A DNA stretch of 64,000 nucleotides from Gemmatimonadota bacterium (GCA_016194585.1 JACQBG010000011.1:1-64000); one strand, 5' to 3'. Shown: positions 37,565 to 41,843, counted from the stretch's first letter. Notes: generated from the sequence alone by a model not told the origin. Numbers and translations: made by a program.

Positions 37565-38107
37565 GTGAACGAGATCGATCCAGCCATCCCCCTGCGGGCG
37601 AGATCCGGCGATGAGAAGGCGTTCATCGAGATCGTGGAGTTCTATTATCCGCGATGCCTCCGGTTCGCGCGCAACATGCTGGGTAACGATCAGGACGCGG
37701 AAGAGGCGGTGCAGGACGCGTTCACCCGGGTGTACGACAGTTTTCCGCGGTTCCGGGAGGATGCGCGCTTCGATCCCTGGCTGTTCCGGATCCTGGCGAA
37801 CCGGTGCCGGACGAGCATGGCGCGGAGCCGGCGACACCGGCAGATGATCGAATACGGCGAACTGCCGTTGATGGCGGTCGCGGCCGCTCCCGAGGAGGAG
37901 TTCGGAGCGGATTGGGCGGAGGAAGTGCGGGTGGTCCTTGAGACCCTACCGCCGGAGCAGCGGGAGGCGTTCCTGCTGCGGCACGTGGAGGATCTCTCCT
38001 ATGAAGACATTGCCGCGGTGACCGGTGCTGGTCTCTCGGCCTTGCGGATGCGGGTCAAGCGCGCGTGTGACGCGCTGCGGGCCCGACTCGAGAAGGTGGA
38101 ACGATGA
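37565..38107 (+). CDS. ECF-type RNA polymerase sigma factor
   Basis: A 180-residue ECF sigma factor. Region 2 (about 25-90) has FYYPRCLRFARNMLGNDQDAEEAVQDAF and RFDPWLFRILANRCRT. Region 4 (about 120-175) has LETLPPEQREAFLLRHVEDLSYEDIAAVTG and LRMRVKRACDALRARL, a complete helix-turn-helix. It directs polymerase to alternative promoters, normally under control of a cotranscribed membrane anti-sigma. The GTG at 37565 is taken as start; the frame is open further upstream but lacks conserved residues. The stop overlaps the next gene as ATGA. Confidence 0.94.
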   Translation: MNEIDPAIPLRARSGDEKAFIEIVEFYYPRCLRFARNMLGNDQDAEEAVQDAFTRVYDSFPRFREDARFDPWLFRILANRCRTSMARSRRHRQMIEYGELPLMAVAAAPEEEFGADWAEEVRVVLETLPPEQREAFLLRHVEDLSYEDIAAVTGAGLSALRMRVKRACDALRARLEKVER

Positions 38108-38697
38108 TCGTGGAAGAACGGGATGAACTGATCGATCGCGCGGCTCGGGCGCTGGCGGCGTTGCCGCCGGCGGACCCGTTGGCCGTGATGCAGATCGTGT
38201 CGCTCGCGAGGACGCGGCGCGGAACGCGCCACCCGCTGGCGGCGCGCTTCGCGGGGTGGATGCGCACGCCGTCGTTCTCGCTCGCCTCGGCGACGATGTT
38301 CGCCGCGGCGACATTGGTGATCGGGTTCGTGTCGGGGAATGCGGTCGAGCGGGCCGCGAGCGGCTCCCCGGCGTCGGCCACGCGTGCGGTGGAGCTCATG
38401 CCCGCGGCCGACGTCGGCGCCGCGGCGCGCGCCGTGGCCGTGCCGATGGTGCTCGACGCGCGCTCGGCGACCACGGTGTCTGTCGTGGGCGACTTCAACA
38501 ACTGGGACGCGACGGCGACGCCGATGCAGCGGTTCGGCGGCGACGGTCCGTGGACGGCGACGGTGCTCGCGAAGCCGGGGCGCCACGTCTACGCGTTCAT
38601 GGTCGACGGCGTGCTGACCGCCGACCCGCGGGCCCCCAAGGCTCGTGACGTGGACTACGGGGGCGAGGCCTCCGTGCTGATGGTGACCAAGCCATGA
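38104..38697 (+). CDS. Membrane-anchored E-set (glycogen-binding-like) protein, probable anti-sigma
   Basis: A 197-residue protein. The N-terminal cytoplasmic part (about 1-55) is acidic/helical (ERDELIDRAARALAAL). One membrane helix follows (about 58-78, FAAATLVIGFVSGNA) and an outward-facing C-terminal E-set/AMPK1_CBM-like domain (about 113-197: VSVVGDFNNWDATATPM...RHVYAFMVDG). Topology and ATGA overlap with the sigma gene are those of a membrane anti-sigma factor, but no classical zinc-binding anti-sigma motif is visible. The E-set domain may sense a glucan or an envelope protein. Anti-sigma function is inferred from position. Confidence 0.82.
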   Translation: MIVEERDELIDRAARALAALPPADPLAVMQIVSLARTRRGTRHPLAARFAGWMRTPSFSLASATMFAAATLVIGFVSGNAVERAASGSPASATRAVELMPAADVGAAARAVAVPMVLDARSATTVSVVGDFNNWDATATPMQRFGGDGPWTATVLAKPGRHVYAFMVDGVLTADPRAPKARDVDYGGEASVLMVTKP

Positions 38698-39332
38698 CGA
38701 TGCGATCGACCGCGGCCTACGTGGCCGCCGCCATGCTGGTGCTGGCCGCGTCGGCCAGCGCGCAGGACGCGCGCCTGTCGCTGATCCGCGACGACGCGAC
38801 GCGCGACGCGGTGCGGGCGCAGTTGCGCAGTGCGACGTCGCGCGGGCTCCCCGCCGACCCGTTCATGTCGAAGGCGCTCGAGGGCGTGGCCAAGAAGGCG
38901 TCGACGAAAAGCATCCGCGCGGCGATGGCGGCGCTCGAGAAGCGCATGCGCGCGGCGCACGCGGCGCTCGCGCCGTCGTCGGATGTGGACGAACTCGCCG
39001 CGGGCGCCGACGCGCTCTCGGTGGGAGTGCCGGAGAAGGCGCTGAAGCAGCTGCGCGCGACGGCGCCGGGGCGCTCGATCTCGGTGGAGCTCGGCGTGTT
39101 GACGGAACTGGTGGCGCGCGGCGTACCCGTGAAACAGGCCACCAAGGCAGTGCTCGACCTGATGGCGCGAGGCGCGACGGGTGTGCAACTTACGGCACTC
39201 GGACGGGACGTGCAGGGCGACGTGGCGGCGGGACTGAAGCCCGACGTGGCGCTCGACCTGCGCGGCCGGAATGTTCTCTCACTTCTGCCGCCGCCGCCAA
39301 CTGTGTCGAACGTCAATGTTCGTCCTCGGTGA
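38694..39332 (+). CDS. Periplasmic helical protein of unknown function
   Basis: A 212-residue protein with a signal peptide (about 1-24, SASAQD). The mature part is mostly helical with heptad-like Ala/Leu spacing (MSKALEGVAKKASTKSIRAAMAALEKRMRAA) and two related segments GVPEKALKQL and GVPVKQATKAVLDLM. It ends in a Pro tract and a basic tail. No family was recognised. It overlaps the E-set gene by ATGA, so it belongs to the ECF operon and may link the anti-sigma to the outer-membrane product. Confidence 0.72.
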   Translation: MTMRSTAAYVAAAMLVLAASASAQDARLSLIRDDATRDAVRAQLRSATSRGLPADPFMSKALEGVAKKASTKSIRAAMAALEKRMRAAHAALAPSSDVDELAAGADALSVGVPEKALKQLRATAPGRSISVELGVLTELVARGVPVKQATKAVLDLMARGATGVQLTALGRDVQGDVAAGLKPDVALDLRGRNVLSLLPPPPTVSNVNVRPR

Positions 39333-39347
39333 GGCCATTCTGACGGA

Positions 39348-40487
39348 ATGAGCCCACGCGTCATCGCGTGGGCGCTCCTCGCTGCCGCATGGCGCGCCGT
39401 GGGCGCGCAGTCGCCGCAGGACGTGCAGTTGGACGCGGGGTATGCCCGCGTCCAGCAGCGCGCGCGCGACGAGCGGGGCGCGGGCATTCTGGGCGTCACG
39501 TGGCGCGTGAGCGACCTGCGCGTCTCGTCGCTGCTGTCGGCCGCCCTCACCAACACCGGCGATTCGCTGGCCGCCGGCCAGATCCTCGGCGCGATCGCGA
39601 TGCGGCCGACGAGCGCGCGGTGGGCGGTGCTCGAGGCGGGGGCCGGGCTCAACATCTTCGGCATCACCAACAGCGGGCGCGGCGGCAATTTCAGCGGCTA
39701 CCTGCGGCCCCGGGTGAGCTTCGGCGACGGCGGCGCATGGGTCGGCGTCTCCGACGGCTCCACGGTGCGTGACGGCAATCCCAGCCATGGCACGACGGTC
39801 GAGGCGGGCGGGTGGTACCGGCTGGGCGACGTGACGGCCACGGCGTCGTTCTCGCGCCTCCGCACCGACGACTGGCCGCTCCTCGAGGCGGCGGGGATCT
39901 ATCTCTCGCGGCCGGCGCTGATGGCCGACATGGACGACGCCACCGTCGGGCTGCACTACGCGCGCGGCCGGTTCACCGCCGACCTCGCGAACAGCTGGCG
40001 GGAGGGGCGGCGGGCGAGTCCGGTGTCGCAGGAGGCGCTGCTGTGGTCGGCGTCGTGGGCGTTCACCGACCGTGTCGCGCTGGCGTTGTCGGGCGGGCGC
40101 ATGCTCGCCGATCCGGTGCGCGGCACCCCCGACGCGTCGCTGACGATGGCGGTGCTCCGTTTCACCTGGCGGCCGAAGGAGAGCGAGGCCGACGTGCCGG
40201 GGGTCGCCTCGTACGCCCGGGTCGCGCCGCAGGCGGGGGGCGCGATGCTCCTCCTCGCCATCGTCGCGCCGTCGTCGGTGGCGGTGGACGTCGCCGGCGA
40301 CTTCTCGAACTGGGAGCCGACCCCGCTGGTGCGGACGCCGAACGGCTGGGAATTCCAGACGTTCCTGAAGCCGGGGCGCCATCGCGTGGCGGTGCGTTAC
40401 GACGGCGGCCCGTGGCGCGCGCCGGGGAACCTGGCCAGAATGAAGGACGAATTCGACGGCGAATACGGCTTGATCATCGTACCCTGA
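39348..40487 (+). CDS. Outer-membrane barrel with C-terminal E-set domain
   Basis: A 379-residue protein. Signal peptide (about 1-20, RAVGAQ), then alternating beta strands over about 25-295 with aromatic residues and Gly-rich turns (SGYLRPRVSFGDGGAWVGVSD, GGWYRLGDVTATASFSRL). This pattern is like an outer-membrane barrel. A short linker precedes a C-terminal E-set/AMPK1_CBM-like domain (about 305-379: VAVDVAGDFSNWEPTPL...GRHRVAVRYDG). That domain resembles the one in the second gene of the operon. Barrel assignment is by pattern only. It lies 15 bases after the helical protein gene. Confidence 0.75.
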   Translation: MSPRVIAWALLAAAWRAVGAQSPQDVQLDAGYARVQQRARDERGAGILGVTWRVSDLRVSSLLSAALTNTGDSLAAGQILGAIAMRPTSARWAVLEAGAGLNIFGITNSGRGGNFSGYLRPRVSFGDGGAWVGVSDGSTVRDGNPSHGTTVEAGGWYRLGDVTATASFSRLRTDDWPLLEAAGIYLSRPALMADMDDATVGLHYARGRFTADLANSWREGRRASPVSQEALLWSASWAFTDRVALALSGGRMLADPVRGTPDASLTMAVLRFTWRPKESEADVPGVASYARVAPQAGGAMLLLAIVAPSSVAVDVAGDFSNWEPTPLVRTPNGWEFQTFLKPGRHRVAVRYDGGPWRAPGNLARMKDEFDGEYGLIIVP

Positions 40488-40494
40488 GGACGCC

Positions 40495-41787
40495 ATGACT
40501 GATCGTCGCACGTTCGTGAAGAGCCTTGCCGGCGCGGGTGCCGCCCTCCCCATGATGCGCGAGAACGCCTTCGCGCAGATCTTCAAGGCGAACGCCATCG
40601 CCGGGGACCGGGCGCCGCAGGACGTCGCCGAGGACGAGCTGTACTGGGCCCAGATCCAGCGCGCGTTCGACGCCGACCGCACGATGATCAACCTGAACAA
40701 CGGCGGCGTGTGCCCGACGCCGACGCACGTGCTCGAGCAGCTGTTCCGCGACCTGCGGTTCACGAACGAGCTGCCGGTGGAGCACATGTGGCGCGTGCTC
40801 GAGCCGCGCATGGAGAGCACGCGGCGCGACCTCGCCCGCGAGTTCGGCTGCGATCCCGAGGAGATGGCCGTCGTCCGCAACGCGAGCGAAGCGAACGAGA
40901 TCATGATCTTCGGGCTCGACCTCAAGCGCGGCGACGAGGTGGTGGTCACCAACCAGAACTACCCGCGCATGATCACGTCGTGGCAGCAGCGCGAGCGCCG
41001 CGAGGGGATCGTCCTCAAGCAGGTCTCGTTCAAGGTGCCGCCGCCGAGCGACGACTACATCGTCGAGCAGTTCCGGCAGGCGATCACGCCGCGCACGAAG
41101 GTCATCGAGGTCACGCACATCACGAACCTCACCGGGCAGATCATGCCGGTGCGGAAGCTCGTCGACATGGCGCGGCCGCTCGGCATCGAGGTGTTCGTCG
41201 ACGGCGCGCACGCCTTCAGCCACTTCCCCTTCAAGCGTGACGAGCTCGACTGCGACTACTACGGCACCTCGCTGCACAAATGGACGCTCGCGCCGATCGG
41301 CACGGGGTTCCTCTACGTGCGCCAGGCGAAGATCCCGCAGCTCTGGTCGCTGATGGGGTCGGGCGAGGGGAACCGCGCGAACATCCGGAAGTACGAGGAG
41401 ATCGGCACGCACCCCCAGGCGAACTTCAACGCCGTGTCGGCCGCGCTCGCGTTCAGCCGCGGCATCGGCGCGGAGCGCAAGATCGCGCGGCTCCGCTACC
41501 TGCGGAACCGGTGGGCGAACCGCCTGCTCGCCGAGAGCGACCGCGTGCAGGTGCTCACTCCGCTCACCGGCGAGCGGAGCGGCGCCATCTGCATGTTCGA
41601 CGTGAAGGGGATGGATCCGGGCAAGCTCGGCGGCTGGCTGCTCGACAAGTACAAGATCGTCACCACGCCCATCGTGCATCCCGAGTTCCACGGCATCCGC
41701 ATCACGCCGAACGTGTACACGTCGGTGGACGAGATCGACACCTTCGGGGACGCGGTGACGAAGGCGATCAAGAAGGGGATCGCGTAA
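40495..41787 (+). CDS. Tat-exported class V aminotransferase-fold PLP enzyme
   Basis: A 430-residue protein. The twin-arginine signal RRTFVKSLAGAGAAL (4-18) suggests folded export. The catalytic core is of the isopenicillin-N-epimerase/cysteine-desulfurase group: RNASEANEIMIFGL, VFVDGAHAFSHFP with the PLP Asp, and Lys262 in SLHKWTLAPIG forming the Schiff base. Substrate is unknown; epimerase or desulfurase-like reactions are possible. GAGGA four bases upstream of the ATG. It follows the E-set barrel by 7 bases, so it may be the fifth gene of the ECF operon. A strong terminator follows. Confidence 0.88.
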   Translation: MTDRRTFVKSLAGAGAALPMMRENAFAQIFKANAIAGDRAPQDVAEDELYWAQIQRAFDADRTMINLNNGGVCPTPTHVLEQLFRDLRFTNELPVEHMWRVLEPRMESTRRDLAREFGCDPEEMAVVRNASEANEIMIFGLDLKRGDEVVVTNQNYPRMITSWQQRERREGIVLKQVSFKVPPPSDDYIVEQFRQAITPRTKVIEVTHITNLTGQIMPVRKLVDMARPLGIEVFVDGAHAFSHFPFKRDELDCDYYGTSLHKWTLAPIGTGFLYVRQAKIPQLWSLMGSGEGNRANIRKYEEIGTHPQANFNAVSAALAFSRGIGAERKIARLRYLRNRWANRLLAESDRVQVLTPLTGERSGAICMFDVKGMDPGKLGGWLLDKYKIVTTPIVHPEFHGIRITPNVYTSVDEIDTFGDAVTKAIKKGIA

Positions 41788-41804
41788 CGGCAGGGGAGGC
41801 AACG

Positions 41805-41843
41805 GCGGGTGGACGGTCTACCGTCGACCGTCCACCCGCTTTT
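41805..41843 (+). terminator. Rho-independent terminator built from heptamer repeat
   Basis: Perfect 13-base arms (41805-41817 and 41827-41839), 9-base loop, then TTTT at 41840-41843. It is made of 7-base units ACGGTCT, ACCGTCG, ACCGTCC in register from 41813, the same periodicity as the metF-metH palindrome. It ends the ECF-aminotransferase unit. Confidence 0.85.

Follow-up and report, generated by a model that had tools for sequence, protein, structure and literature searches.

The closest described counterparts of the operon considered here are the cell-surface signalling systems FecA-FecR-FecI, PupB-PupR and FoxA-FoxR. The operon lies at 37565-40487 of a 64,000-nucleotide stretch of DNA from a Gemmatimonadota bacterium (GCA_016194585.1, JACQBG010000011.1:1-64000), which we refer to in its entirety as the window, and its four open reading frames, here called SIG, ANTI, PER and OMP, lie where an initial annotation made from the sequence alone had placed them. 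The known systems have in common with this module an outer-membrane barrel with a periplasmic domain, an anti-sigma protein (putative in our case) with one transmembrane (TM) segment, and an extracytoplasmic function (ECF) sigma factor (PMC7186176, PMC9249621, PMC11637429). PupR has, at the end of its periplasmic part, an STN subdomain that is homologous to the signalling domain of PupB, and PupB and PupR form a complex (PMC7186176). The matching domains of FoxA and FoxR were modelled to pair, a contact that protects the anti-sigma factor when there is no signal, and the signalling domain was proposed to be cleaved and so to bridge the gap between the membranes (PMC11637429). In both PupB/PupR and FoxA/FoxR, the C-terminal periplasmic domain of the anti-sigma factor is homologous to that of the barrel protein, as are the paired E-set domains of ANTI and OMP. 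We propose, with a probability of about one in two, that the operon is one copy of a self-regulated, Gemmatimonadota-wide ECF module for cell-surface signalling, through which the cell monitors its outer membrane.

The module differs from FecA-type systems in that its barrel is a 14-strand, porin-like one without plug, TonB-receptor or STN domains, in that an E-set takes the place of STN and sits at the C-terminus of the barrel protein, and in the addition of a helical periplasmic protein, the usual gene order being sigma, anti-sigma, PER and OMP. No Pfam match to a TonB receptor, plug or STN domain was found in 26 OMP orthologues, whose barrel starts right after the signal peptide, and 30 ANTI members gave no match to FecR at an E-value of 0.1. 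Since these domains were not found, we do not regard the module as a member of the FecA-FecR-FecI family.

In the sigmaE-RseA-RseB system, a one-TM anti-sigma factor and a periplasmic partner control an ECF sigma factor, and in this combination the two are alike. However, Pfam gave no match to RseA or to RseB/MucB domains in ANTI or PER, PER is all-helical, and an OMP belongs to the conserved unit. The initial annotation knew of no described system of this layout. That statement stands for a system combining E-sets with a porin-like barrel and an additional helical protein, for which we found no precedent, but not for the principle, as transducers of the outer membrane and their anti-sigma factors are known to share homologous domains in the form of STN. 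In the searchable literature, the module is described neither where sigma or anti-sigma factors are linked to AMPK1_CBM, CBM48 or early-set domains nor where anti-sigma and ECF factors of Gemmatimonadota are treated; a published ECF group may already include SIG.

The four-gene unit and its conservation

All features described here are on the plus strand. SIG (37565-38107), called an ECF sigma factor from the outset, matches Sigma70_r2 (9e-16) and Sigma70_r4_2 (1e-14) in Pfam and carries regions 2 and 4 without region 3, as ECF sigma factors require; its start codon, GTG at 37565, is supported by an N-terminal start motif shared with orthologues. ANTI (38104-38697) is an anti-sigma-like protein that has a single hydrophobic segment (near residues 58-76) and ends in an E-set matching AMPK1_CBM (6.8e-9) and CBM_48 (1.1e-8), in agreement with its earlier description as a one-helix membrane protein with an AMPK1_CBM-like domain. 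PER (38694-39332) is a predicted secreted, all-helical repeat protein of an orphan family, and OMP (39348-40487) consists of a signal peptide, a predicted barrel and a C-terminal E-set. SIG and ANTI, like ANTI and PER, overlap by 4 nt and PER and OMP are spaced 15 nt apart, so that the four genes overlap or nearly touch, as had been noted.

The anti-sigma role of ANTI had been proposed from its position, in a protein without the usual anti-sigma motif, and we likewise found no Pfam anti-sigma domain. The putative cytoplasmic N-terminus (residues 1-57; 38104-38274) comprises the roughly 57 residues ahead of the TM segment. In several paralogous operons, the gene at the same position encodes a longer N-terminal domain, and these fuller paralogues (L064, L146, L147, L137 and L139) have a (D)L-x-R-Y-L-D-G-E-L-like start, a predicted helical stretch and an R-V-M-like motif ahead of the TM segment; one of them gave no sequence match in the PDB. 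The YLDGEL pattern is one we take to be typical of class I anti-sigma domains, and its presence in the paralogues strengthens the assignment by position. The N-terminus of the window's ANTI aligns solely with the later part of the paralogues' domain, and we take it as a shortened class I anti-sigma domain that would bind SIG. Zinc-free members are common among class I anti-sigma domains, and such regulators are in excess in Gemmatimonadetes (PMC7406223).

The module is not confined to the window's close relatives. In a sample of the phylum, a PER profile matched 184 of 298 Gemmatimonadota genomes and 79 of 119 genera, with up to 5 copies in a genome, and among 41 genomes from the window's own genus, family and order, 36 have relatives of ANTI and 32 of OMP. 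The named relatives are metagenome-assembled genomes of Gemmatimonadota, several from lakes by their isolate names; among named genomes a narrower PER alignment matched Gemmatimonadota only, and distant relatives elsewhere are possible. PER was not found on plasmids.

We fetched 78 PER loci, which were selected through PER and are mutually related, and so do not represent independent samples. ANTI adjoins SIG co-directionally in all 78, the SIG-ANTI pair stands directly upstream of PER in 78/78, and an E-set OMP lies nearby in 72/78, even where the gene order has changed. The order SIG-ANTI-PER-OMP occurs in 54 loci (including 7 with an aminotransferase-like gene behind and one with a divergent sigma-like gene) and, with PER duplicated behind OMP, in another 4; OMP precedes the rest as OMP-SIG-ANTI-PER in 5, is on the opposite strand in 5, and comes before PER in 4, one of which (L122) is really PER-OMP read as a single frame. 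Because the same four families recur together in 72/78 loci, their association is more than chance, and while the initial annotation had named a gene order not conserved in related genomes as an observation that would speak against it, the module proved to be conserved phylum-wide. Two apparent natural fusions were dismissed and are not used as evidence: PER-OMP in L122 is an in-frame run-on in which the internal signal peptide is kept, and SIG-ANTI in L133 seems to stem from a shifted frame where SIG ends. A relative, genome G003, lacks the module and has instead a short frame that runs from the beginning of SIG into the last part of OMP, which looks like loss in one deletion.

All components of the operon co-diverge, having the same nearest neighbour in 37-55% of operons compared to 2% after shuffling. 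The barrel is the most variable part, with a mean identity of 22%, and SIG (48%) and the ANTI E-set (46%) are the most conserved, as would be expected of a variable sensor feeding a conserved relay.

Further copies of individual components were also seen. A second SIG-ANTI(E-set) pair of the window's own genome (L053, 4525-5593 of G000:C30) sits beside a threonine dehydratase-like gene. Second PER-like genes lie behind OMP in L203, L204, L061, L064, L146 and L147, those of L203 and L204 with their own copy of the promoter motif described below. In L068, L148, L170, L171 and L172, where OMP either was not detected or lies on the other strand, SIG has a second sigma-like gene, a divergent one, beside it. 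Near several SIG-ANTI-PER loci without a detected E-set OMP, there is a gene for an M14 zinc carboxypeptidase (L127, L158, L164 and L166, and also L121).

The E-sets, the barrel and PER

The E-set of ANTI (approximately residues 111-194; 38434-38685) exceeds the Pfam cut-off for both AMPK1_CBM and CBM_48, and all 30 ANTI orthologues match. In OMP (residues 287-378; 40206-40481) the AMPK1_CBM match of 0.005 is below the cut-off, and 22 of the 26 OMP orthologues match, the best at 2e-7. Against solved structures, the ANTI profile finds the E-sets of pullulanase and AMPK beta with E-values of 8e-12 and 2e-10 (8e-12 to 1e-9 among the best), the OMP profile matches the same E-sets more weakly, and the two profiles match each other, which bears out the claim that the E-set of OMP is related to that of ANTI. 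A tree of 118 E-sets groups the 56 from OMP in one clade (95/87) beside those of ANTI, and several sub-clades of the former mirror sub-clades of the latter; the alignment has few columns, and the deep forks are uncertain.

The model of OMP (predicted local distance difference test, pLDDT, 86.5) has 14 strands at residues 24-273 (39417-40166), a loose linker and the E-set, and agrees with its earlier description as an outer-membrane barrel-like protein. Long loops (174-192 and 253-262) lie on one side of the barrel and short turns on the opposite side, together with both termini. The short-turn side of known barrels is the periplasmic side. As the E-set follows an even-stranded barrel with its termini on that side, it should be periplasmic, and the E-sets of ANTI and OMP should thus both be in the periplasm, one tethered to each membrane. 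The initial annotation had placed E-sets on both sides of the envelope, an arrangement that is ruled out by the topology of the OMP model. The closest solved structures (VIA-align) are the 14-strand porins CymA (Z 20.3; 3.2 A over 235 residues) and OmpG (Z 19.6), which the barrel resembles in size and shape. It differs from them in sequence, the structurally aligned residues being 5-10% identical and a PDB search giving no sequence match to the barrel, in carrying a C-terminal periplasmic E-set, and in being conserved with an ECF operon.

PER, expected to be a periplasmic helical protein, is modelled with confidence (pLDDT 91.7) as an all-helical repeat of ten helices, including the signal peptide, and has no clear solved relative. 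Pfam, NCBIfam and PHROGs gave no match, and Foldseek gave none for the fold at an E-value of 0.001 or better; the best VIA score (Z 9.7) is to designed helical repeats and is within the range of a common arrangement. If our reading is right, PER would define a new protein family.

Regulation, signalling and the alternatives

Ahead of SIG lies an ECF-type promoter-like element, GTGAC-N16-GGGTAAT (P1, 37438-37465), which is the sole match in the window (0.04 expected), one of 4 in the whole genome, and fits a phylum-wide motif. That motif emerged from a two-part word search of 75 SIG upstream regions, in which GTGAC-N16/17-GGGT occurs in 29 loci compared to at most 7 for any word in shuffled sequences. 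With a weight matrix built from it, 79% of loci versus 3% of shuffles reach a score above 10, the training loci being the test loci, and the matches most often stand about 25 nt ahead of the SIG start. A second element, GGTGGC-N17-GGTAA (equivalent to GTGGC-N16-GGGT; P2, 37506-37533), is a variant copy about 30 nt ahead of the SIG start and is conserved among 17 congeners whose upstream regions were aligned. A slightly stricter pattern of P2 is present in 16 of 18 genus genomes at 17 sites, 16 of which are at this operon; its strict form matches almost only this operon, and we dismissed P2 as a regulon-wide motif. Taken together, position and conservation give good support to the proposal that SIG autoregulates its operon. 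Searched in 150 genomes of the phylum, a stricter form of the motif has 44 matches versus 20 for the reversed pattern, some of them at SIG promoters, others at the second PER gene (two genomes) or at several proteins predicted to be secreted. Copies ahead of predicted secreted or lipoprotein-like genes are found in L188 (near 1502, minus strand), L184, L189 and L197, one of them divergent from the module, and about half of such matches are expected by chance. The evidence for a wider regulon is suggestive only.

Based on these observations, we propose the following model. SIG would be held by the cytoplasmic N-terminus of ANTI, which would span the inner membrane once and expose its E-set in the periplasm. 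OMP would form a 14-strand, porin-like barrel with the second E-set on its periplasmic side, and PER would act as a soluble helical-repeat adaptor. A change in the barrel, whether by ligand, occupancy or failed assembly, may then alter how PER and the E-sets of OMP and ANTI touch one another. In response, ANTI would release SIG, probably through proteolysis, and the freed SIG would transcribe its own operon. Somewhat more tentatively than for the module as a whole, we suggest that the module represents a class of its own within transenvelope sigma signalling, one typical of Gemmatimonadota, where the E-sets of barrel and anti-sigma protein communicate via PER and paralogous copies are tuned to different outside cues.

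A signalling role is supported because SIG-ANTI (78/78) and OMP (72/78) are kept through several rearrangements, because all components co-diverge and the sub-clades of OMP E-sets mirror those of ANTI, because an ECF-type promoter motif lies upstream of SIG, because G003 lost the module in an apparent single deletion, and because PupB/PupR and FoxA/FoxR offer a precedent for homologous domains in such a role. Several observations weigh on the other side. No anti-sigma Pfam domain was found in 30 ANTI members (with a cut-off of E 0.1 for FecR), 6 of the 78 PER loci have no detected E-set OMP, and the second SIG-ANTI pair in the window's genome stands without PER or OMP. The co-divergence is partly the shared ancestry of linked genes. 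Finally, the linker of ANTI is anywhere between 5 and 56 residues long, and its length is not compensated by that of the OMP linker (rho -0.02), so this comparison, used as a test of direct spanning, showed no correlation; as some ANTI linkers have only about 5 residues, contact across the periplasm would require that PER or another bridge takes part or that the OMP E-set is released.

The short linkers, insufficient in some members for two anchored E-sets to touch, are also what might be expected of an envelope-assembly sensor like sigmaE-RseA-RseB, in which OMP would be both target and indicator, its E-set reaching ANTI or PER only before barrel insertion, and the module would monitor OMP assembly rather than an outside ligand. 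An apparently autoregulated operon that includes an OMP and a periplasmic protein suits such a sensor, as do the motif matches ahead of predicted secreted genes in some relatives. We nevertheless consider it unlikely, since the barrel diverges far more than the relay, suggesting diversification of ligands or loops, and the Pfam searches found neither RseA or RseB nor any other anti-sigma family.

Less likely again is that the ECF pair simply induces an operon of envelope proteins, with OMP and PER giving no feedback to ANTI. ECF operons often include their own targets, PER and OMP are merely downstream in most loci, and the second PER-like gene of relatives has its own promoter-motif copy. However, co-regulation of this kind would not account for homologous, co-diverging E-sets on ANTI and OMP, nor for an association that was kept after OMP had moved elsewhere or to the other strand.

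The glucan-binding role, one of two that the initial annotation proposed for the matching domains, can be assessed at the positions where AMPK beta contacts glucan, namely W100, K126, W133 and N150 in its numbering. W100 is present in every ANTI E-set and in nearly every one from OMP. K126 is kept in none. W133 is kept in 65/69 OMP and, outside the window's genus, in 42/57 ANTI E-sets, whereas it is Leu in 17/17 ANTI of the genus. N150 is kept in 26/57 ANTI outside the genus, in 0/17 within it (Ala in 17/17) and rarely in OMP. The module's E-sets therefore share with AMPK beta and the CBM48 E-sets of glucan enzymes the fold family and a conserved W100, but have lost K126 in all cases and N150 in most, and they sit on an anti-sigma-like protein and an outer-membrane barrel rather than on an enzyme or kinase. 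As three of the four tested positions are not kept in the window's ANTI, glucan sensing by this protein is unlikely and the earlier proposal is not supported for it; the OMP E-set keeps both tryptophans. A glucan operon context was also dismissed, as the recurrent annotated neighbours include no carbohydrate-active enzymes and instead comprise fatty-acid oxidation genes, RsgA, proline dehydrogenase, a major facilitator superfamily transporter, methionine synthase and peptidases. Glucan-responsive uptake, with the barrel as a CymA-like oligosaccharide channel and alpha-glucan bound by the E-sets as the signal, would fit the tryptophans of OMP and the similarity to CymA, a cyclodextrin channel, but it is the least probable of the alternatives given the contact positions, the neighbouring genes and the fact that 14-strand barrels have this fold whatever their ligand.

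Surrounding genes and implications

A probable fifth gene (40495-41787) begins 7 nt 3' of OMP and encodes a Tat-signal class-V aminotransferase-like protein (Aminotran_5, 2e-39) that is PvdN-like but below the cut-off of the PvdN model (118 bits versus 650). It is directly 3' of OMP in 7/78 loci, all from the window's family, being kept in the window's genus and in L118 and L134, and remains in G003 (L072) despite the loss of the module. A consensus scan found a terminator-like stem of 15 pairs 3' of this gene (41804-41840), and with 1 stem found compared to 1.7 in shuffles the scan is weak on its own; what favours a terminator is the place of the stem right after the last stop codon. The transcript probably ends there, with possibly five genes in all. 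An Rfam scan of the region gave no match. Fatty-acid oxidation genes (FadB-like and thiolase) lie beside 12-15 of the 78 loci (L120, L121, L122, L123, L125, L127, L132, L158, L159, L162, L164 and L166).

Soils and lakes harbour abundant Gemmatimonadota, a phylum that has been little studied. As the promoter element and all parts have been identified, the module is directly testable. If our reading is true, it would name a widespread way in which Gemmatimonadota sense their outer membrane or surroundings. Furthermore, it would mean that the logic of FecA and FecR, in which anti-sigma factor and outer-membrane sensor carry matching domains, also exists with another domain and a non-TonB barrel.

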